Positions 16,564 through 28,430 of a DNA stretch of 64,000 bases are shown in pieces. How positions within the stretch are numbered: the first letter of the stretch is position 1; every line of letters begins with the position of its first letter. The translations under genes and the position numbers were made by a program. Origin of the DNA: an uncultured Actinomycetes bacterium (GTDB taxonomy: Bacteria; Actinomycetota; Actinomycetes; Nanopelagicales; Nanopelagicaceae); assembly GCA_903822425.1 (NCBI GenBank), contig CAIJOY010000039.1, forward strand, positions 1 through 64,000, read 5' to 3'. A model generated the notes under the pieces. It did no database searches and had not been told where the DNA came from. It was given only the letters and a program-made list of their open reading frames with translations.

Positions 16564-18399
16564 ATGAGCGGACGCATTAAAGATGAGGATGTTGCCTACA
16601 TCCGCGAACGCGCACCTATTGATGAGATTGTCGGAGATTATGTTCAACTCAAGAATGCTGGAGGGGGTCAGAAAAAAGGTCTCTGTCCATTTCATGATGA
16701 AAAATCTCCTTCATTTCACGTAACCCCTAGCAAAGGATATTTTCACTGCTTCGGGTGCCAAACTGGTGGAGATGTCATTGCATTTATCATGAAAATGGAT
16801 CACCTTTCATTTACTGAAACAGTTGAACGCCTCGCCGAACGTATTGGATACACCTTGCGTTACGAGGAAGGTGGAAGCGGTGTCAAGGCAGCACCTGCTG
16901 GACAACGTTCACGATTAATTGCCGCCAATGCTGCAGCTGCTAAGTTTTATCAAACACAACTCAACGAATCTTCGGGTGCTCAATTCGGGCGAGACCTATT
17001 GTCTAAAAGAGGTTTCGATAAAGCAGCATGTGAAATATTCGGTGTTGGTTATGCCCCTGATGAGTGGGATGCACTCACAAAGTATTTACGGAGTGAAGGT
17101 TTCAGTATCGACGAACTTGAAGTTGCGGGCCTTTCCAAGATGGGCCAGCGCGGCCCCATTGATCGATTCCGTAATCGCCTCACTTGGCCAATTCGGGATA
17201 TTTCTGGAGACGTTGTTGGTTTTGGAGCACGCAAGTTAGCAAGTGATGATGTCGACAGCGGTCCTAAGTATTTGAATACTCCCGAGACACCCATCTACAA
17301 AAAAAGCCAAGTCCTTTACGGGTTAGATCTGGCAAAAAAAGAGATTGCCAAGAAGCGCCAAGCGGTAATTGTCGAAGGTTACACGGATGTTATGGCGGCT
17401 CATTTGGCAGGGATTACAACAGCAGTTGCCACGTGCGGAACTGCATTTGGCGCAGACCATATTCGAATATTGCGCCGACTTTTGATGGATGATGATTCAT
17501 TTCGCGGTGAAGTTATTTTCACATTTGATGGAGATGCAGCGGGGCAAAAGGCAGCCCTTCGTGCATTTACTGATGACCAAAAATTTGTTACGCAAACATT
17601 CGTTGCAGTTGAACCAGATGGTTTAGATCCATGTGATTTGCGCCAACAAAGGGGCGATCTTGCTTTGAGAGATCTCATTGCACGCCGAGTGCCGCTCTTT
17701 GAGTTCGCAATCCGTACCGAACTCAATTTACATAAATTAGATTCAGCTGAAGGCCGTGTGAATGCGCTCAATGCTGCAGCACCATTAGTTGCACAAATTC
17801 GTGATAAGTCTCTGCGTCCCGAGTACACACGCTTGCTGGCTGGCTGGCTCGGTGTAGAAGTAGAAACTGTTTCAGCTGTTGTTGCCCGCGGAGTTCGCAA
17901 TGTAGTTAGTACTACAGATGCCGAAGTAGTTGTAGATTCGCAATGGAGACCTAACCCCAATGAGCCACGATTGGCACTTGAACGCGAAGTTCTCAAAGCG
18001 CGACTTCAAATGCCGGATCTGGTGAAAGGTTGGAGCGAAATCGAAATCGAAGCATTTACTCACCCCGCATATCAACAACTTCGTGGAGTAATTGACGCCC
18101 ATGGCGATTCGCATCTTCGGATGGATCAGATTGACGATGAGCACATGAAATCTCTTATTGCCGAATTATCTGCTGAACCAATTCGCGAAGATGGTGCGAT
18201 CTCAGAAAGATATGTTGAGAGCATCGTTGCGCGTTTACGAGAAGTGACGATGAGCCGAGCAATTGCTGAGTTAAAGTCCACTTTGCAGCGCTTGAACCCC
18301 GTCGAAAATGATTCTGAATACACCGCCCTTTTTACCGATCTGGTCGCCTTGGAAAGTGCTCGCAGAACCCTGCATGATTTGGCCATTGGCGAGCTATAA
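16564..18399 (+). CDS. dnaG: DNA primase
   Basis: Makes RNA primers at the replication fork. The 611-residue protein has a CHC2 zinc ribbon with ligands C41, H44, C62 and C65 (CPFHDEKSPSFH...FHCFGC), the RNA polymerase domain, a TOPRIM domain (VIVEGYTDVMAA and FTFDGDAAGQ), and a C-terminal helicase-interaction region. All catalytic acidic motifs are visible. It lies 5 nt after dgt. Confidence 0.95.
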   Translation: MSGRIKDEDVAYIRERAPIDEIVGDYVQLKNAGGGQKKGLCPFHDEKSPSFHVTPSKGYFHCFGCQTGGDVIAFIMKMDHLSFTETVERLAERIGYTLRYEEGGSGVKAAPAGQRSRLIAANAAAAKFYQTQLNESSGAQFGRDLLSKRGFDKAACEIFGVGYAPDEWDALTKYLRSEGFSIDELEVAGLSKMGQRGPIDRFRNRLTWPIRDISGDVVGFGARKLASDDVDSGPKYLNTPETPIYKKSQVLYGLDLAKKEIAKKRQAVIVEGYTDVMAAHLAGITTAVATCGTAFGADHIRILRRLLMDDDSFRGEVIFTFDGDAAGQKAALRAFTDDQKFVTQTFVAVEPDGLDPCDLRQQRGDLALRDLIARRVPLFEFAIRTELNLHKLDSAEGRVNALNAAAPLVAQIRDKSLRPEYTRLLAGWLGVEVETVSAVVARGVRNVVSTTDAEVVVDSQWRPNPNEPRLALEREVLKARLQMPDLVKGWSEIEIEAFTHPAYQQLRGVIDAHGDSHLRMDQIDDEHMKSLIAELSAEPIREDGAISERYVESIVARLREVTMSRAIAELKSTLQRLNPVENDSEYTALFTDLVALESARRTLHDLAIGEL

Positions 18400-20679: not shown

Positions 20680-20919
20680 ATGGCACTTTTTAGGTTGCAT
20701 CTTTCACTCCCCGATCGTCCTGGCTCATTGGGTGCGGTGGCATCGGCCATTGGTTTCGCTGGTGGGGATATTCGCGGACTAGTTGTGATGAAAAGTGAAG
20801 ATGGCCGTGGATACGATGACATTACCGTGGCAATTCCTGGCAGTGACCCTACGGATCTTCTCAATGTTCTGGGTGATATTGGTGGGGTTGAAGTACTAAA
20901 AGTTATGCCAGTGAAATAA
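20680..20919 (+). CDS. Stand-alone ACT-domain protein
   Basis: A 79-residue single ACT domain. LFRLHLSLPDRPGSLGAVA is the ligand-loop strand-helix, and GGDIRGLVVM and DDITVAIPG follow as the second beta-alpha-beta half. ACT domains bind amino acids and regulate enzymes; which one is served here is not evident. Its end overlaps the convergent galK by 17 bp. Confidence 0.8.
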   Translation: MALFRLHLSLPDRPGSLGAVASAIGFAGGDIRGLVVMKSEDGRGYDDITVAIPGSDPTDLLNVLGDIGGVEVLKVMPVK

Positions 20920-22036
20920 TTTTTGCGCCTTCACTGGGTAGTGCTGTAAAGAATCTTGGTTCGCGGAAGTTCTCTTTTTTGAAGGCTAAACGTATTGCCT
21001 CAATCATTTTTGCCGATTCGCCAGCGTGAATAAGAGCAATATCACTTCCTCCATAACCCCCGCCGATCATTCGTGCTCCCAGCGCGCCAAGGCGCTGGGC
21101 TACTTCAACGCCTAAATCAAGTTCGGGACAAGAAACGGTGTAGTCATCGCGCAGCGATGCATGGGTTTGGTTGATGAGATCACCGAAAAGTACAAAATCA
21201 TCCTTTTCAAGAGCGGTGACCGCTTCGCGCACCCGTTGCATTTCGCTGACGCCATGACGCGCTCTGACAAATTGAGTAGGAGTAAATTCATTTTTGTGTG
21301 CGAGTAATTGTTCCATTGTGACATCTCGAAGTGCTTTCGCCCCTAATGCCTCAGAGACGACTTCACAATCTCCACGGCGTTCTGCGTAGCCTCCATCAAC
21401 GAGGGCGTGATGCACTTGTGTGTCGATGACAAGTAGTTCAAGTCCGTGTGATGCCAGATCAAATGGAATATGGCGCGTGGATAAGTCTCGGCAATCCAAT
21501 AACAGTGCATGACCAGCTAGCGACATTAATGAAACAGATTGGTCCATAATTCCGCACGGCATTCCGACGTAGGCATTTTCTGCTCGTTGGCAAATGCGGG
21601 CAAGATCTTCAAGTGAATGCCTAAAATTGAAGAGTTTATTGACCGCTGTAGCAACGCTGCATTCCAGAGCCGCTGACGAGGAAAGCCCAGCACCTAAAGG
21701 TACGTTCCCATCGATGAGCAAATCCACGCCTTGAGTTATTCCTAGTGCCCAAAGAACTCCCAATGCATAACGCTCCCAGTCACCTTTATTTCCAGGTGCT
21801 AAATCTTCAATGCTGGTGGAAAATATTTCGCCATTGCGCTGCATGGAAGCTAAGTTAATTTTTGAGTCTTTCCTTGCGCGCACCGCAGCAAGTGTGTGAT
21901 CCGAAATGGCAAAGGGAAGAACGAAACCATCCAGGAAATCCACGTGTTCGCCAATGAGATTTACGCGTCCGGGAGCTTGGGCTACTACCGTTGGGAGTTC
22001 ACCGAATAACTTTTCAAAAGTTTTTTCTGTATTCAT
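20903..22036 (-). CDS. galK: Galactokinase
   Basis: Phosphorylates galactose to galactose-1-phosphate. The 377-residue GHMP kinase has the galactokinase signature GRVNLIGEHVDFLDGFVLP at the N-terminus, the ATP loop PLGAGLSSSAALE and the C-terminal GGGYGG segment (ARMIGGGYGGSDIALI). It is the last gene of the galT-galE-galK run; its start overlaps the galE stop by 4 bp (ATGA). Confidence 0.95.
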   Translation of the reverse strand: MNTEKTFEKLFGELPTVVAQAPGRVNLIGEHVDFLDGFVLPFAISDHTLAAVRARKDSKINLASMQRNGEIFSTSIEDLAPGNKGDWERYALGVLWALGITQGVDLLIDGNVPLGAGLSSSAALECSVATAVNKLFNFRHSLEDLARICQRAENAYVGMPCGIMDQSVSLMSLAGHALLLDCRDLSTRHIPFDLASHGLELLVIDTQVHHALVDGGYAERRGDCEVVSEALGAKALRDVTMEQLLAHKNEFTPTQFVRARHGVSEMQRVREAVTALEKDDFVLFGDLINQTHASLRDDYTVSCPELDLGVEVAQRLGALGARMIGGGYGGSDIALIHAGESAKMIEAIRLAFKKENFREPRFFTALPSEGAKIISLA

Positions 22037-22992
22037 AAAAGTTCAAGGCTAGAGGCTGTGTCTGTAACCATTTGAGCCAAGTCACGAGATGGACGCCAAT
22101 TCAAAAGGCTTTCTGCAAGTTCTATTGATGCAACCAAGACGGCTGGATCACCATCTCGACGTGGCGAATCCAGAGTGGGAATCGGTCTTTCCAAGACTTT
22201 TTGTGCCGAATCGATCACTTCTCGCACTGAATATCCTCGCCCGCTGCCAATATTGATGATGGCATGGTGTGAATCTTTAAGGACTCTTAGTGCACGCACA
22301 TGAGCATCAATAAGATCAACGACGTGTATGTAATCTCTGATGCACGTGCCATCTGCGGTTGGCCAATCGCTTCCGAAGATTTTTACTGGATGATCAGCTG
22401 TGCTGTGCAAAACATTGGGAATGAGGTGAGTTTCAGGATTGTGTCGCTCGCGCAACCAGCCTCTCTCGGTCTTCATGGAACCTGCGACATTGAAATAACG
22501 AAGACTAATTGCAGCAAGTCCATGTGCACTTGCTTCTTTAGTTAGCATTTGATCAATAGCGAGTTTGGTTTCTCCATATGGACTTGTTGGTTGGGTTGGG
22601 GCAGATTCGGTGATGGGAGTTGTAGTTGGCTCTCCATAGGTTGCGGCCGAGGATGAGAAGACAATTTGTTTGATGTTCGCAAGGCGCATTTCCTCCAGCA
22701 GAACCCGCGTACCGTGCACATTCACATCGCGATACAAATCGGGTTTTTGCACTGATTCACCCACGAGCGACTTTCCCGCGAAGTGGATAACAGCGCTAGC
22801 CCCAGTGAGTGCTTCACGCACTGTGTGCATGTTCAAAATTGTGCCTTCGATAAACCGTGCTTGGGACGGTAGCGCATCTGCAAAGCCCGAGGATAGGTCG
22901 TCTAAAACACTGACATCAAAACCTTGCTGGAGAAGAATCTCAACGGCTGTGGCACCTATATATCCAGCGCCGCCCGTTACGAGGATTCGCAT
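22033..22992 (-). CDS. galE: UDP-glucose 4-epimerase
   Basis: Interconverts UDP-galactose and UDP-glucose. The 319-residue extended SDR has the NAD motif TGGAGYIG at the N-terminus, catalytic SSSAATYG and YGETK (Y-x3-K), and the RYFNVAGS substrate loop. It is coupled to galT by a TAATG overlap and to galK by ATGA, so all three Leloir enzymes are co-translated. Confidence 0.94.
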   Translation of the reverse strand: MRILVTGGAGYIGATAVEILLQQGFDVSVLDDLSSGFADALPSQARFIEGTILNMHTVREALTGASAVIHFAGKSLVGESVQKPDLYRDVNVHGTRVLLEEMRLANIKQIVFSSSAATYGEPTTTPITESAPTQPTSPYGETKLAIDQMLTKEASAHGLAAISLRYFNVAGSMKTERGWLRERHNPETHLIPNVLHSTADHPVKIFGSDWPTADGTCIRDYIHVVDLIDAHVRALRVLKDSHHAIINIGSGRGYSVREVIDSAQKVLERPIPTLDSPRRDGDPAVLVASIELAESLLNWRPSRDLAQMVTDTASSLELL

Positions 22993-24119
22993 TATTTTCC
23001 TAAGACCACATCTCGTAATTGTTGCGCCGATTGTTCTGGTCGCATATCCATGATGAATGCACCCATCGCAGATTCTGAACCCGCCAAGTATTTCAATTTG
23101 CCTGGAGCTCGGCGCACACTAGTGATCTGCCAATGGAGGCGAAGTAGATCCCGACCTTGGCGGACAGGTGCTTGATGCCACGCTGCGATGTATGCCATCG
23201 GAATTCCAAACACACCATCTAGACGCTTGAGGACCTCAAGGGAGATAGACGGAAATGCATCGCAAACTTCTAGCGAGAGTTCGGTCAAGTCAGCAACTGG
23301 CTTTCGAGGAGTTACATGAATTTCAAACGGATATCTCGCCGCGTAAGGTACAAATGCAATCCAATGCTCATTTTGAGCAACTATCCGAACTTCATCTTTA
23401 ATTTCTCGAGCAAGGAGATCATCAAAGAGAACCCGTCCGGTGCGTTCCTTATGCAACTTGGCAGCTGCAAGCATTCGCTCAACGCGAGAGGGCAAATATG
23501 AATACGCATAAATTTGACCATGTGGGTGAGTAAGTGTCACACCGACTTCTTCGCCGCGGTTTTCGAAAGGGAAAATCTGTTCGATAAATTCTTGCTCGGA
23601 TAATTCGGCGGTACGATCTCGCCAAGCTTCAAGGACGGTACGTACTTGCGATTGCGAAAGATCACCAAATGAATTGCCATGCTCGGGGGTATAGCAAACA
23701 ACTTCACAGATGCCAGCGGCCGGAACGATGGGAGTTTCAGGTCCAAGTGATTGCGGAAGTTTCCATGGTCCATCAGGTGGACGCAATGAAGGCGAACGAT
23801 TATCAAATACGACTACGTCATAGGTTGCTTCAGGTATTTCCGTAAGGAGTTCACCGGTAGTTGGACACAGTGGACACAATTCTTTAGGGGGTAAAAAAAT
23901 TCTCGTTTGGCGATGAGGCGCCATTGCCACCCATTCATTAACAAGTGAATCAAGGCGTATTTCACCGATTCCTGGTTGGTCCTCTTTAGGGCGCAAATCT
24001 GGAGCGTTTCGAGTTTGACCGTGTGTGTCGTAATAGCGAATTGTGCGCCCGTCAGACATTTCACGATCATTGCGAATCACGCCAGCTGCTAGTTTTTTGC
24101 TCGCATGCTCAGAAGACAT
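22992..24119 (-). CDS. galT: Galactose-1-phosphate uridylyltransferase
   Basis: Exchanges UMP between UDP-glucose and galactose-1-phosphate. This 375-residue HIT-superfamily enzyme shows the nucleophile motif HPHGQ (TLTHPHGQIYAY), the zinc-type Cys pair (LCPLCPTT) and a C-terminal half with WHQAPVRQG. The start ATG 24119 follows a -10-like TAGAGT by 9 nt. A second Met 20 residues in (MSDGRTIRYYD) is an alternative. It follows glpK after 7 nt. Confidence 0.93.
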   Translation of the reverse strand: MSSEHASKKLAAGVIRNDREMSDGRTIRYYDTHGQTRNAPDLRPKEDQPGIGEIRLDSLVNEWVAMAPHRQTRIFLPPKELCPLCPTTGELLTEIPEATYDVVVFDNRSPSLRPPDGPWKLPQSLGPETPIVPAAGICEVVCYTPEHGNSFGDLSQSQVRTVLEAWRDRTAELSEQEFIEQIFPFENRGEEVGVTLTHPHGQIYAYSYLPSRVERMLAAAKLHKERTGRVLFDDLLAREIKDEVRIVAQNEHWIAFVPYAARYPFEIHVTPRKPVADLTELSLEVCDAFPSISLEVLKRLDGVFGIPMAYIAAWHQAPVRQGRDLLRLHWQITSVRRAPGKLKYLAGSESAMGAFIMDMRPEQSAQQLRDVVLGK

Positions 24120-24126
24120 AGTGTGC

Positions 24127-25614
24127 CTACTCTACCCAGCCTAATGAACGTTCTATTGCTTTTTTCCAAGAGACAAATCCCTTTTCGCGTGAGTGTTGAG
24201 AGGATTGCGGTTGCCATTGGCGAGAACTTTGCCATTTTGCTCGTAGCTCATCTGTGCCAGACCAGAATCCCACTGCTAAGCCAGCTGCATATGCAGCCCC
24301 CAGCGCAGTAGTCTCGCCGATCACTGGGCGAGTAATAATGATTCCCATGATGTCAGATTGCATCTGCATACATAATTCATTGGCTGTGATTCCACCGTCA
24401 ACACGCATGTCGGTCAAAGCCACTCCGCTTTCGGCAACCATCGCATCGATAATCTCGCGAGTTTGGTAACAAATGGCTTCAAGTGCCGCTCGCGCAAGAT
24501 GAGCTTTAGTCGATGCTCGTGTAAGCCCGACGATGGTCCCACGTGCATCACTTCGCCAATGCGGTGCGAAGAGTCCAGAGAAAGCTGGAACAAAATAAAC
24601 ACCGTCAGTACTTTCAACACTTGCTGCTAAGTCCTGGATTTGTGAGGCATGAGAAATGATTCCTAATTGATCCCGTAACCACTGAATAGCAGATCCAGTT
24701 ACAGCTACAGATCCTTCAAGTGCATATTGCACGGGTCCATCTCCAAATTTGTAAAGGACTGTGGTGAGAAGGCCATGGGTTGAGCGAACGATTTCATTGC
24801 CAGTGTTGAGCAGAGCAAAATTGCCAGTGCCATATGTTGTTTTCGAATCTCCACGATTGAAGCAGACTTGGCCAACCATTGCCGCTTGCTGATCACCCAA
24901 AATAGCCGCGACTGGAATTTCGGCTGCGAAGGGTCCCGATTTAACAGTCATGCCGAATACTTCAGAAGAGGATCGAATTTCTGGCAGAAGATCTAATGAA
25001 ATGCCAAAGATTGAAAGCAGATCGGGATCCCATTGCAAAGTTTCCAAGTTCATCAACATAGTGCGTGATGCATTTGTGACGTCGGTGGCAAGCACGCCAG
25101 TGAGCTTCCACAGAAGCCAGGAATCGATTGTTCCGATACGGGCATTGCCCGTTGATATTGAGTCGCGCAGGATCGAATTGTTTTCAAGCATCCAATGCAT
25201 TTTGCTAGCTGAAAAGTACGGAGCAATCTGTAGACCAGTGCGATGGCGAATTAATTGCTTTTCTTCGTTACCTAAGGTTGCCAAAAAATCTGCAGTTCGA
25301 ACGTCTTGCCAAACTATTACATTGCCTAGTGAGTGCCCAGTGGAAATATCCCAAGCCACAGTGCTTTCTCGTTGGTTTGTGATGCCGATCGCAGTTAAAT
25401 CTGCACCTTTAATGCGGGCTTTCTCGAGTGCTTCAGCAATGACCTCTTGCACTCGTTGCCAGATTTGTTCTGCATCATGCTCGACCCATCCAGATTGGGG
25501 CAGAATTTGCTCATGTTCACGTTGAGCGGCGCCAACTATGCGTCCATCGTGATCGATGATCATAAATCGGGTACTACTTGTTCCTTGATCCAAACTTCCG
25601 ATAAATGTTCCCAA
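24127..25614 (-). CDS. glpK: Glycerol kinase
   Basis: Phosphorylates glycerol to sn-glycerol-3-phosphate. This FGGY-family kinase of about 495 residues has the N-terminal phosphate loop GSLDQGTSSTRFMI, LIRHRTGLQIAPYFSASKMHW (in part) and YGTGNFALLNTG. I start at TTG 25614, which has AAGGAG 6 nt upstream and places the GSLDQGT motif where GlpK usually has it. The longer ATG frame (25662) would overlap the lysozyme gene by 25 bp. It lies directly upstream of galT-galE-galK; no glpF or glpD is adjacent. Confidence 0.88.
   Translation of the reverse strand: MGTFIGSLDQGTSSTRFMIIDHDGRIVGAAQREHEQILPQSGWVEHDAEQIWQRVQEVIAEALEKARIKGADLTAIGITNQRESTVAWDISTGHSLGNVIVWQDVRTADFLATLGNEEKQLIRHRTGLQIAPYFSASKMHWMLENNSILRDSISTGNARIGTIDSWLLWKLTGVLATDVTNASRTMLMNLETLQWDPDLLSIFGISLDLLPEIRSSSEVFGMTVKSGPFAAEIPVAAILGDQQAAMVGQVCFNRGDSKTTYGTGNFALLNTGNEIVRSTHGLLTTVLYKFGDGPVQYALEGSVAVTGSAIQWLRDQLGIISHASQIQDLAASVESTDGVYFVPAFSGLFAPHWRSDARGTIVGLTRASTKAHLARAALEAICYQTREIIDAMVAESGVALTDMRVDGGITANELCMQMQSDIMGIIITRPVIGETTALGAAYAAGLAVGFWSGTDELRAKWQSSRQWQPQSSQHSREKGFVSWKKAIERSLGWVE
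24129..24134 (-). promoter_or_regulatory. -10 box, galT
   Basis: TAGAGT on the minus strand, within the end of glpK, lies 9 nt before the galT ATG; it may give a gal-only transcript. Confidence 0.3.
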
Positions 25615-25637
25615 AGATGTCTCCTTCAACTGAGGAG

Positions 25638-27278
25638 TCAATTCTTTATCTGATTCTTGCAACCATCAATAGCGGGCTTAGGAGTAGATGGGGTCGTTGG
25701 CTTAGGAGTAGATGGGGTCGTTGGCTTAGGGGTTGGTATTGCTCCTTGTAGGAGCGTGATGACCACCGGAGTTGAGCTTGTTGCATGCGTGCCAGAAATA
25801 TCAGTGAACTTAATTTTTCCTGGCCATGTGCCAGCTGGGAGACCTTTAACACTCAGGACCCAACTGCCGCTGGAAGATCGAACTGCAGACTGCACTGGAG
25901 TTACTTTTAATCCTGCATCTTTATCTGCAAAAAATCTTACGGTCCCAGTAACAACAGGTGTACCAGTGGGACGCACAACATTAACTGTAAAAAGTACGGG
26001 TCGATTTATACTTGTTGCAACAATAGATTGAACAAAAGTTTGGCTTGGTTCTTGACTCGGCATGAGTTCACTTACTTCGGGCTCCCACGTTCCTTGTACA
26101 AGTTTAAGGAACGAGTTCGGAGTACCTCGGAAAACATTAAGGTCTACTCGAGTACCTGGAACACCGTATTTTTTTGCAATGCCACATGAGGTGTACTGCC
26201 ACATCGTCCATAGAGAAGAACAATTGGATGTCGTCCATGAGTGGACATAGCAACCTCCATTTTTCTGTCCGGGCTGGGCCAAAGGATCAAAGGGATCAAG
26301 TGCGTAGTGAGCAATCCAGAGTGGGTATTTGAGTAGTTCGGTAGTGCGAACTGTAGAACTTTCCAGGAAATAAGGTCCTGAATATATTATTGGCAATCTA
26401 TTGGTTTTCTTGGCGACTTCTGCAAGCCAAGTTGTAGTCCACAGCGTTGCCGCACTTCTTGTTACGTAGGCATGGCAGGCACCGGTGGAGCTCACAAGTA
26501 CACATTTGTTTTCTAAGTCGAGTGCATAGGGGAGATCTCGTTGTGTATAGCCGCCTAAACTGGCTAAACGCCAAGCTACTTTCTGTGCTTGTGCTTTCGC
26601 ATCCTGGATAATCACCATTGGATCTGTGGAGTTAGGCAAAGTTGCATAGTGATAGAAGCCCGTGTAAATACCTGCGGCTTGTGCAGCATTGTGATCGATT
26701 ATTGCGTTAGATAACGCTTGCGCATCAGCTAGGTCGCGCGTATCAGATGCCTTAATCATTACAAATCGAATGCCGGCACCGTACATCTTTACGAAATCTA
26801 TGCTTTTCCCATCAGGATGTTGCCATCGACTGATATCCATCCCGTGGATTCTTCCTCCCGGTCCTGTTGATGCGATTAAAGAAGCAGGGTCACTTGAAGC
26901 AACTTCCGGAATTTGTTTTATCGTGACTGATCTTAACTTTGAAACTATTGTCTTACCTGAAACAATTATTAGTGCACGATACTTAACACTGGCATTTAGC
27001 GCAGTAGCAACAGATTCAATACGCCAAGTCCCACTCGAGGTAGTTTTGGTTGATAAGGAAGTCACATGCCATTTACTTTTAACTTCAACTTGGATCGAAA
27101 TTTTTAGTCCACTTTTAGCAGGTTTAACTTGGCCATAAAGAGTGACAATCGGTTCAGAAACACTCGGGGTTTGGCGTACGGCAAGTGTGAGAGTTGTCGG
27201 AACTGCCCACGCTGGGGCCAAATCGGTAGCAACTAAGGCCAGCACTATGACAGTCAATTGAGCTATGAATTTCTTCAC
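25638..27278 (-). CDS. Secreted GH25-family lysozyme with Pro/Thr-rich tail
   Basis: A 546-residue exported muramidase-like protein. It has a Sec signal peptide (residues 1-25, ending AWA) and an N-terminal beta-sandwich-like region (30-125). The GH25 catalytic domain spans about 143-365, with D148 (HGMDISRWQ) and the D254-x-E256 pair (YALDLENKC). A second Ig-like region (about 405-515) and a tail of TPKPTTPS repeats follow. Several paired cysteines fit an extracytoplasmic location. The GTG start at 27278 is directly followed by the Lys-rich signal. It may remodel the own cell wall or attack other cells; sequence cannot decide. It lies 11 nt after the small DnaX-C-like gene. Confidence 0.85.
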   Translation of the reverse strand: MKKFIAQLTVIVLALVATDLAPAWAVPTTLTLAVRQTPSVSEPIVTLYGQVKPAKSGLKISIQVEVKSKWHVTSLSTKTTSSGTWRIESVATALNASVKYRALIIVSGKTIVSKLRSVTIKQIPEVASSDPASLIASTGPGGRIHGMDISRWQHPDGKSIDFVKMYGAGIRFVMIKASDTRDLADAQALSNAIIDHNAAQAAGIYTGFYHYATLPNSTDPMVIIQDAKAQAQKVAWRLASLGGYTQRDLPYALDLENKCVLVSSTGACHAYVTRSAATLWTTTWLAEVAKKTNRLPIIYSGPYFLESSTVRTTELLKYPLWIAHYALDPFDPLAQPGQKNGGCYVHSWTTSNCSSLWTMWQYTSCGIAKKYGVPGTRVDLNVFRGTPNSFLKLVQGTWEPEVSELMPSQEPSQTFVQSIVATSINRPVLFTVNVVRPTGTPVVTGTVRFFADKDAGLKVTPVQSAVRSSSGSWVLSVKGLPAGTWPGKIKFTDISGTHATSSTPVVITLLQGAIPTPKPTTPSTPKPTTPSTPKPAIDGCKNQIKN

Positions 27279-27288
27279 GGGCGAACCA

Positions 27289-27546
27289 TCATTTTTCCAC
27301 GATCTGAATATCTACAAGCAAGACTTCATGTATTGCCCGCTCCAATGCCGCACGATGGTTAGGGCGGGATTGGGAGAATTCATGACCGGATGCAAATTTT
27401 CGACTATCGGAGAAATCCAAATACAAGGTCGAATCTACGAGGGAGTCCAAGCGAGCATCAAAGAAAGTGAGCCAGGCAATACGATCTGCCCGCTCTAGAT
27501 GGTCGAGGATTTCCACCCAGCGAACACGAATATCAGAAATTTCCAC
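27289..27546 (-). CDS. Small protein resembling the C-terminal domain of DnaX (tau/gamma)
   Basis: An 85-residue protein from GTG 27546, leaderless behind TATCGT. Its pattern (IRVRWVEILDHLERADRIAW, then STLYLDFSDSRKFA and LERAIHEVLLVDIQIVEK) matches by eye the domain that follows the clamp-loader collar in DnaX proteins, where W--IL...R..W..L, TL-L-F and AL-EVLGVDW recur. No ATPase or collar part is present. It is free-standing, between a LuxR-type regulator and a secreted lysozyme. Function unknown. Resemblance is moderate, and chance similarity of a small alpha/beta fold is possible. Confidence 0.55.
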   Translation of the reverse strand: MEISDIRVRWVEILDHLERADRIAWLTFFDARLDSLVDSTLYLDFSDSRKFASGHEFSQSRPNHRAALERAIHEVLLVDIQIVEK

Positions 27547-27553
27547 GGAAGTG

Positions 27554-27559
27554 ACGATA
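27554..27559 (-). promoter_or_regulatory. -10 box, leaderless DnaX-C-like gene
   Basis: TATCGT on the minus strand ends 7 nt before GTG 27546. It is identical to the -10 of the zinc operon. Confidence 0.45.
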
Positions 27560-27591: not shown

Positions 27592-28260
27592 CTAGTGTCG
27601 CGGAGCGCCGATCCATTTGAAGTACTGGCCAGTGATGAGTACTCGTAGATTCTGCTTACGATCGGGAATTACGCCCAGATGTTGTGCAATTCGCGCAACG
27701 ATTTGCTCAACTGATTTTTCACTGACAAATCTCGTACGCCCAATTTCCGAGTTACTCATTCCCAATGCAACCAAACGGAGAGTTTCAATTTGAATATCCG
27801 TTAAATCATGAAGTATCGAGATAAAGGAATTCTGATGCAGCAATGAATGATCATTCACCCATTCCATCGGTTGTTTCTCAGCTGCTGCGTTGATTGAATC
27901 AGGTATTGCATCACATATGACATCTAGATCACCGACAGATCGCTTCAAAACAATTTGAGTACCCAAAGGGATTTCTTTTTCAGTATGCCCTAGAAGTCGC
28001 AGATCAGGACATGCTGTTGTTAAAACAATTCCGAGAGTGGGAGAACTTTTTCGAAGGAGTTGAGCAAATGAAATTCCGCTATGAGAATTGAACTGAACAT
28101 CTATTACGACAACTTCTGGTTTAAGACTCGTGAAGAGTTTCTCAGAAACCATGTAATCACTTGCTTCGCCGACAACATTCACTCCGTGTAGTCGCATCGC
28201 AGCTGCTAAAGTGACTAATTCGAATGGATCATCGTTGATCAGTAAAACTCGAATAGTCAT
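27592..28260 (-). CDS. NarL/LuxR-type response regulator (orphan)
   Basis: A 222-residue two-domain regulator. The receiver domain has acidic pocket D10/D11, phospho-acceptor D54 (VVVIDVQFN) and a Lys after a beta strand (QIVLKRS). The C-terminal LuxR helix-turn-helix (about 160-215) has LTDIQIETLRLVALGMSNSE and SEKSVEQIVARI. No histidine kinase lies nearby. The start is ATG 28260 (MTIRVLLINDD); an ATG 12 codons upstream is rejected because TACGGT, 5 nt before 28260, gives a leaderless start. It is divergent from the sugar-acid island and could act on the inverted repeat in between, but this is a guess. Confidence 0.85.
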   Translation of the reverse strand: MTIRVLLINDDPFELVTLAAAMRLHGVNVVGEASDYMVSEKLFTSLKPEVVVIDVQFNSHSGISFAQLLRKSSPTLGIVLTTACPDLRLLGHTEKEIPLGTQIVLKRSVGDLDVICDAIPDSINAAAEKQPMEWVNDHSLLHQNSFISILHDLTDIQIETLRLVALGMSNSEIGRTRFVSEKSVEQIVARIAQHLGVIPDRKQNLRVLITGQYFKWIGAPRH

Positions 28261-28265
28261 AATGC

Positions 28266-28271
28266 ACCGTA
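28266..28271 (-). promoter_or_regulatory. -10 box, leaderless response regulator
   Basis: TACGGT on the minus strand ends 5 nt before ATG 28260. Confidence 0.4.
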
Positions 28272-28430
28272 GCGTAAACGTAAAACATATGCGCATTAAA
28301 AATAGGTTGCTGGGGTAATCCCTATGCGTTCAGATTCTTAATTATTTTTAAAATTATGTGCAATATTTTTCGACCAAGAGTTAAAAACTTTTTACAAGGA
28401 TTTTCTCTGAAGCTGTCGGTAGATCGATGA

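Follow-up and report, generated by a model that had tools for sequence, protein, structure and literature searches.

The window, i.e. the whole stretch of 64,000 nucleotides that was analysed, encodes a free-standing protein, here labelled S, that on the strength of profile comparisons and a predicted fold is a homologue of the actinobacterial DnaX C-terminal domain (tau domain V type). The 85-residue gene claimed in the initial annotation was retrieved as an open reading frame on the minus strand with a GTG start, and a chain of only 85 amino acids leaves no room for an ATPase part, as had been stated as well. The gene for S and its surroundings comprise the following features:

27289..27546, minus strand: S, 85 amino acids read from a GTG, stand-alone homologue of the C-terminal domain of DnaX (tau domain V type), assigned by profile homology and predicted fold
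27592..28296, minus strand: response regulator with a LuxR-type HTH (receiver domain, E 2.8e-8; LuxR-type HTH, E 1.1e-5)
27554..27559, minus strand: candidate -10 element TATCGT, 7 nt before the GTG of S, of a putative leaderless mRNA
25638..27278, minus strand: GH25 lysozyme, the next gene after S (PF01183, E 1.6e-24)

The LuxR-type regulator that had been placed before S was thus borne out by both of its domains, and its gene ends 45 nt upstream of S. The GH25 lysozyme gene after S was found too, but not at the reported spacing of 11 nt, as 10 nt separate the stop codon of S from the GTG of the lysozyme gene. No histidine kinase gene was seen by eye beside the response regulator, and a relative of this regulator occurred just upstream of S in 10 of the 18 neighbourhoods compared (three of the initial 21 were dropped, as S was not found there by the pattern of the script). 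The minus-strand genes after the lysozyme (20903-25662) were named by eye as sugar-use genes, coding for glycerol kinase, galT, galE, and galK. Furthermore, the plus strand carries a dnaG primase gene (16564-18399) with DNAG_N, CHC2 zinc finger, and DnaB-binding domains, about 9 kb from S, a nearness that is probably due to chance.

That S represents a chance open reading frame was rejected. Indeed, relatives of S were present (E<1e-12) in 34 of the 37 genomes of the window's family, out of 60 related genomes searched, and several of its residues are near-invariant. Over 74 pairs of equal length that were 70-97% identical and had a dS between 0.1 and 2, the median dN/dS was 0.088; as members recur among the pairs, these are not independent. 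In the three family genomes without a match (G014, G032, and G033), a contig end cuts the lysozyme gene, so that the absence of S is not established there. Nothing below E 0.003 was found in the 23 genomes of other families among the same 60.

Homology and predicted fold of S

NCBIfam describes the DnaX C-terminal domain by its PRK07764 models, and its gamma/tau model NF005848 matched the S protein of the window (E 1.7e-4) and 26 of 27 S relatives at E values up to 0.1 (best, 2.3e-8). A profile-profile comparison of S with the DnaX C-terminal domain gave 97.1% (E 4.9e-11), and a larger one, with 46 S and 27 DnaX sequences, gave 98.0% (E 2.7e-13), versus 10.5% (E 0.003) with domain I of DnaA from the same class, for which only six sequences were aligned. 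The DnaX-C likeness that had been read by eye from the residue pattern therefore corresponds to homology, and the HMM-HMM comparison that had been named as a check produced a match. Other collections gave less. Pfam model PF20964 (DnaX_C) matched 18 of the 27 S relatives weakly at E values up to 0.1 (best, 1.2e-4); it returned no match to the window's S at E 10, nor to the DnaX C-terminus of the same genome at E 0.01. The only Pfam match of the window's S was Tom37 (E 0.11), and PADLOC and PHROGs yielded no match at E 0.1. Searched by sequence against the PDB, two S profiles (A1 and A3) retrieved no replication protein at E 10, and the profile of the DnaX domain retrieved DnaA at E 0.053 and 0.74.

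The homology extends over nearly the whole of S, with the same predicted order of helices and strands, and includes residues common to both groups, namely W10 (present in 47 of 47 DnaX domains), R22 (44/47), W25 (40/47), and G77 (37/47). In contrast with DnaX, S is free-standing and lacks the AAA+ ATPase, the collar, the linker, and the C-terminal tail, and it carries specific residues in the motifs FDARL and LDFSDxxK. These comprise D30 (46/46 in S versus 6/47 in DnaX domains), R32 (45/46 versus 5/47), D44 (40/46 versus 0/47), D47 (46/46 versus 6/47), and K50 (43/46 versus 5/47), all of which are nearly fixed in S.

The structural model of S (pLDDT 87.6) has the order helix-helix-strand-strand-helix-helix-strand. 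Its best solved match with VIA-align 2 was domain I of DnaA (4tps_D; Z 9.0, 78 residues aligned, rmsd 2.6), the next row having a Z of 6.7. Foldseek gave no match to the model at E 0.001 or better, its best (E 0.036) again being DnaA domain I. Although this domain is the best solved fold match, it resembles S only weakly by sequence and is part of DnaA instead of being free. The matches to E. coli tau (5fku_E, Z 5.3; 2aya, Z 4.9) were tied with unrelated KH-like chains, and so was the row for DciA (7ykm, Z 4.9), a KH-type helicase loader whose domain, DUF721, was not found at E 0.1 when 27 S proteins were searched with Pfam. As a control, the C-terminus of the genome's own DnaX was modelled from a six-row alignment (pLDDT 69.6, with a floppy tail). 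It displayed the same order of elements as S and hit the same PDB entry best (4tps_B; Z 11.7, 81 residues aligned, rmsd 1.8); the 50 rows listed for this model do not include E. coli tau, which excludes nothing. The structure prediction suggested earlier as a check thus returned a fold like that of the genome's own DnaX domain, the two models being compared by their order of elements and their best PDB entry. Accordingly, the label tau domain V type reflects place and sequence in DnaX, and the label pseudo-KH, DnaA-domain-I type reflects the predicted fold of S. A placement of D47 of S on Asn47 of B. subtilis DnaA, a SirA contact according to the available part of a published study (PMC4285326), was not leaned on, as this link runs through two weak alignments.

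S and the DnaX of the same genome

The initial annotation had raised the possibility that the C-terminal domain is missing from the DnaX of this genome. This did not hold, as the last 137 residues of DnaX were found at a contig edge, 89% identical to those of the DnaX of a relative and including both the domain and the tail. A DnaX N-terminal model found no dnaX gene in the assembly, only three other frames that were by eye holB, clpC, and ruvB; the remainder of DnaX was presumably lost in an assembly gap. At this locus of the assembly, L084 (G000:C16), dnaX is cut by the contig edge, and the N-terminal model alone would call the gene missing. Past the domain, the genome's own DnaX continues with a linker and then an ELGA-type tail; S ends with the domain. 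This DnaX keeps its own copy, which makes S a separate paralogue rather than a fragment that DnaX has lost.

The same holds beyond this genome. The C-terminal domain was present at 11 of the 13 family DnaX loci read; of the other two, one is cut with its domain on another contig (L055), and one is cut and looks foreign by eye (L034). Other families contributed 14 genomes with S, and the six of these that were followed yielded a DnaX-borne copy as well. When 46 S sequences and 47 DnaX domains were placed on one tree, S formed one side of a branch with a support of 100/99; this tree is unrooted and was built from 89 retained columns, its bootstrap was unsettled, and the program warned of long branches at the point where S joins.

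Gene pairing, start signal, and distribution

A pattern scan of a named genome collection returned 169 S loci, the best 80 of which were kept. The tellingly named records among these 80 belong to lineages of acI, Planktophila and Nanopelagicus among them; other organism names are attached to some records of metagenome-assembled genomes, loci being taken by record and not by family membership. A relative of the window's GH25 lysozyme, 47-68% identical, came directly after S at 78 of these 80 loci. Of the two exceptions, L099 stops 97 nt after S, and L135 has a lysozyme frame with an in-frame stop. The distance from the stop of S to the lysozyme start at the 78 loci was -4 in 68 cases and -1 in six, with single loci at -14, 0, +2, and +6, so that the lysozyme gene overlaps S in 75 of the 78; the window, with its gap of +10 nt, is an exception. 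The motif LD[ILV]E, which we take to be the GH25 catalytic pair, occurred in 77 of the 78 lysozymes. In the window, the lysozyme has a signal peptide as seen by eye, S has no export signal by the same judgement, and the C-terminal part of the lysozyme showed a weak bacterial Ig-like match below the Pfam cut-off. Hence, the pairing with a cell-wall hydrolase gene that had been pointed out for the window is conserved, and the overlaps suggest that S and the lysozyme are co-translated. The tie is not universal, as three family genomes (G024, G028, and G031) contain S without a GH25 match at E 1e-10, one of them, G028, being a single contig, and the 14 loci described below for other families showed no GH25 neighbour.

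The claim of a leaderless gene was supported by a TANNNT box 5-8 nt before a start codon at 76 of 78 S loci, taken from the best 80 of 169 after two loci with too little upstream DNA had been dropped. The corresponding figure in shuffled sequences was 8%, a contrast that is inflated, because a choice of start codon within 15 nt was open to the real data and not to the shuffles. S may thus have a promoter of its own and a leaderless transcript. The longer pattern RGGTATCGTC occurred once in the genome, at the S gene, and likewise once when read backwards, and a regulon operator was rejected for the upstream box on account of this single occurrence. As the box varies as TANNNT at the other loci, it was read as a promoter and not as an operator.

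Outside the window's family, a search of 394 genomes (E<1e-20) found S in 14, which belong to three families (8, 3, and 3 genomes). At these 14 loci, no open reading frame of at least 100 amino acids within five genes of S clustered with GH25, several loci being cut by contig ends. In one genome (G316), S lies within an open frame of 536 amino acids with a provisional start. Besides a normal copy, the genome with locus L238 (G388:C2) contains a second, diverged S copy inside a frame of 214 amino acids. A Pfam search of 20 proteins encoded next to S, some of them from family genomes, gave a mixed picture, mostly of housekeeping functions or no match. In the three genomes of genus g114 (family f34), S is directly followed by an exodeoxyribonuclease III-type gene, 5 nt away in L235 and with an overlap of 8 nt in L236 and L237; the L235 protein scored over the curated cut-off for exodeoxyribonuclease III, and the L236 and L237 genes fall in the same BLAST cluster. 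This gene, the second partner gene observed for S, belongs to DNA repair and is the nearest approach to replication in the other families, in which S was not seen beside replication genes. A search of 396 genomes of the phylum returned five matches at E 1e-6, of which only that of the window's own genome was free-standing; as this draw seems to hold no other known S-bearing genome, it says little about the spread of S. Among viral contigs, 49 pattern matches were obtained, none of which was an S relative.

The initial annotation had offered a captured domain with a new role as one option. The idea of a domain set free fits these data, with two corrections, namely that the genome's own DnaX keeps its copy and that no lysozyme gene was seen beside S at its 14 loci in other families.

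Possible roles of S

A new role for S is likely. The reading that is tentatively preferred, at somewhat less than an even chance, is that S is a free adaptor or competitor that uses the partner face of its fold on a replication protein and is made together with a wall hydrolase. S would act in the cytosol as a small adaptor or competitor in protein-protein contacts, and the partner face of a DnaA-domain-I/tau-domain-V type fold would meet DnaB, the Pol III alpha subunit, DnaA, or a part of the clamp loader. In E. coli, according to the available part of one study (PMC11470591), the contact of tau with Pol III alpha spans residues 611 to at least 636, and tau is unstructured beyond S617 unless bound. 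If the tail has the same function in actinobacteria, S, which has no such tail, could not tether the polymerase as E. coli tau does; it would instead block or tune a contact. The pairing of both genes in the window's family would yield S and the wall hydrolase together. Against this adaptor reading count the loci of other families without replication neighbours, the PF20964 matches, which are weak and do not include the window's S, and the best Foldseek E value of 0.036. Further points against it are the tau and DciA rows tied with unrelated chains, the PDB searches in which S profiles retrieved no replication protein, and the few columns, unsettled bootstrap, and long branches of the tree.

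Alternatively, S may have lost any replication role and now serve the lysozyme alone, as a regulator or helper of, for instance, its expression, folding, or export, with the domain re-used as a scaffold. Both the position of S directly upstream of GH25 with frequent overlap (78/80 and 75/78, respectively, among the best 80 of 169 loci) and near-invariant residues that differ from those of DnaX would suit such a helper. It is nevertheless unlikely, as no GH25 match at E 1e-10 accompanies S in G024, G028, and G031, no GH25 was seen within five genes at the 14 S loci of other families (some cut by contig ends), and the lysozyme carries an export signal by eye whereas S does not.

Less probable again is that the S frame serves mainly as a leaderless entry site, from which ribosomes re-initiate on the lysozyme, so that S would set the dose and the protein would be a by-product. 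The TANNNT box and the stop/start overlaps at these same best loci are in line with this, but the low dN/dS and fixed residues of S, its retention without a lysozyme neighbour in other families, and the 10-nt gap of the window itself are not. It is doubtful, to a marginally greater degree, that the KH-like fold of S serves to bind single-stranded DNA or RNA, by analogy with DciA, which is reported to bind single-stranded DNA in the accessible parts of two papers (PMC9865707, PMC12547741); the fold class of S would allow it, but the invariant D30 and D47 are acidic. The same low probability applies to a coupling of replication to wall cutting, in which a tail-less mimic of tau domain V would sample a replisome contact and the co-translated lysozyme would open the wall for growth or separation, both rising together. 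Finally, a split DnaX, with S as its missing C-terminal part, was rejected as highly improbable despite the homology of S to that very domain, since the C-terminus of the genome's own DnaX was found with domain and tail (89% identical to that of a relative) and S stands apart from the DnaX domains on the tree.

Re-use of tau domain V as such is already known, going by the available parts of reports on the N-terminal NI/NII domains of PolC (PMC12926913; PMC3919608). These domains, likened to S here by description only, are fused to a polymerase, whereas S is free. No report of a free-standing protein of the tau domain V type was found by title or start of abstract in the literature searched, subscription papers being mostly outside reach; the available part of PMC13220808 holds nothing on a free-standing domain, and no paper on Planktophila with GH25 was found.

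With S, a relative of the polymerase-side clamp-loader domain that stands alone, bacterial replication would gain a new small player, and the records that bear S include named Planktophila and Nanopelagicus genomes. Should S, as an adaptor or competitor, vie for a contact in the replisome, it could act as a natural regulator, and the lysozyme gene paired with it would offer a link from replication to wall growth that can be tested. Such a coupling, if true, would concern a widespread group of freshwater bacteria.
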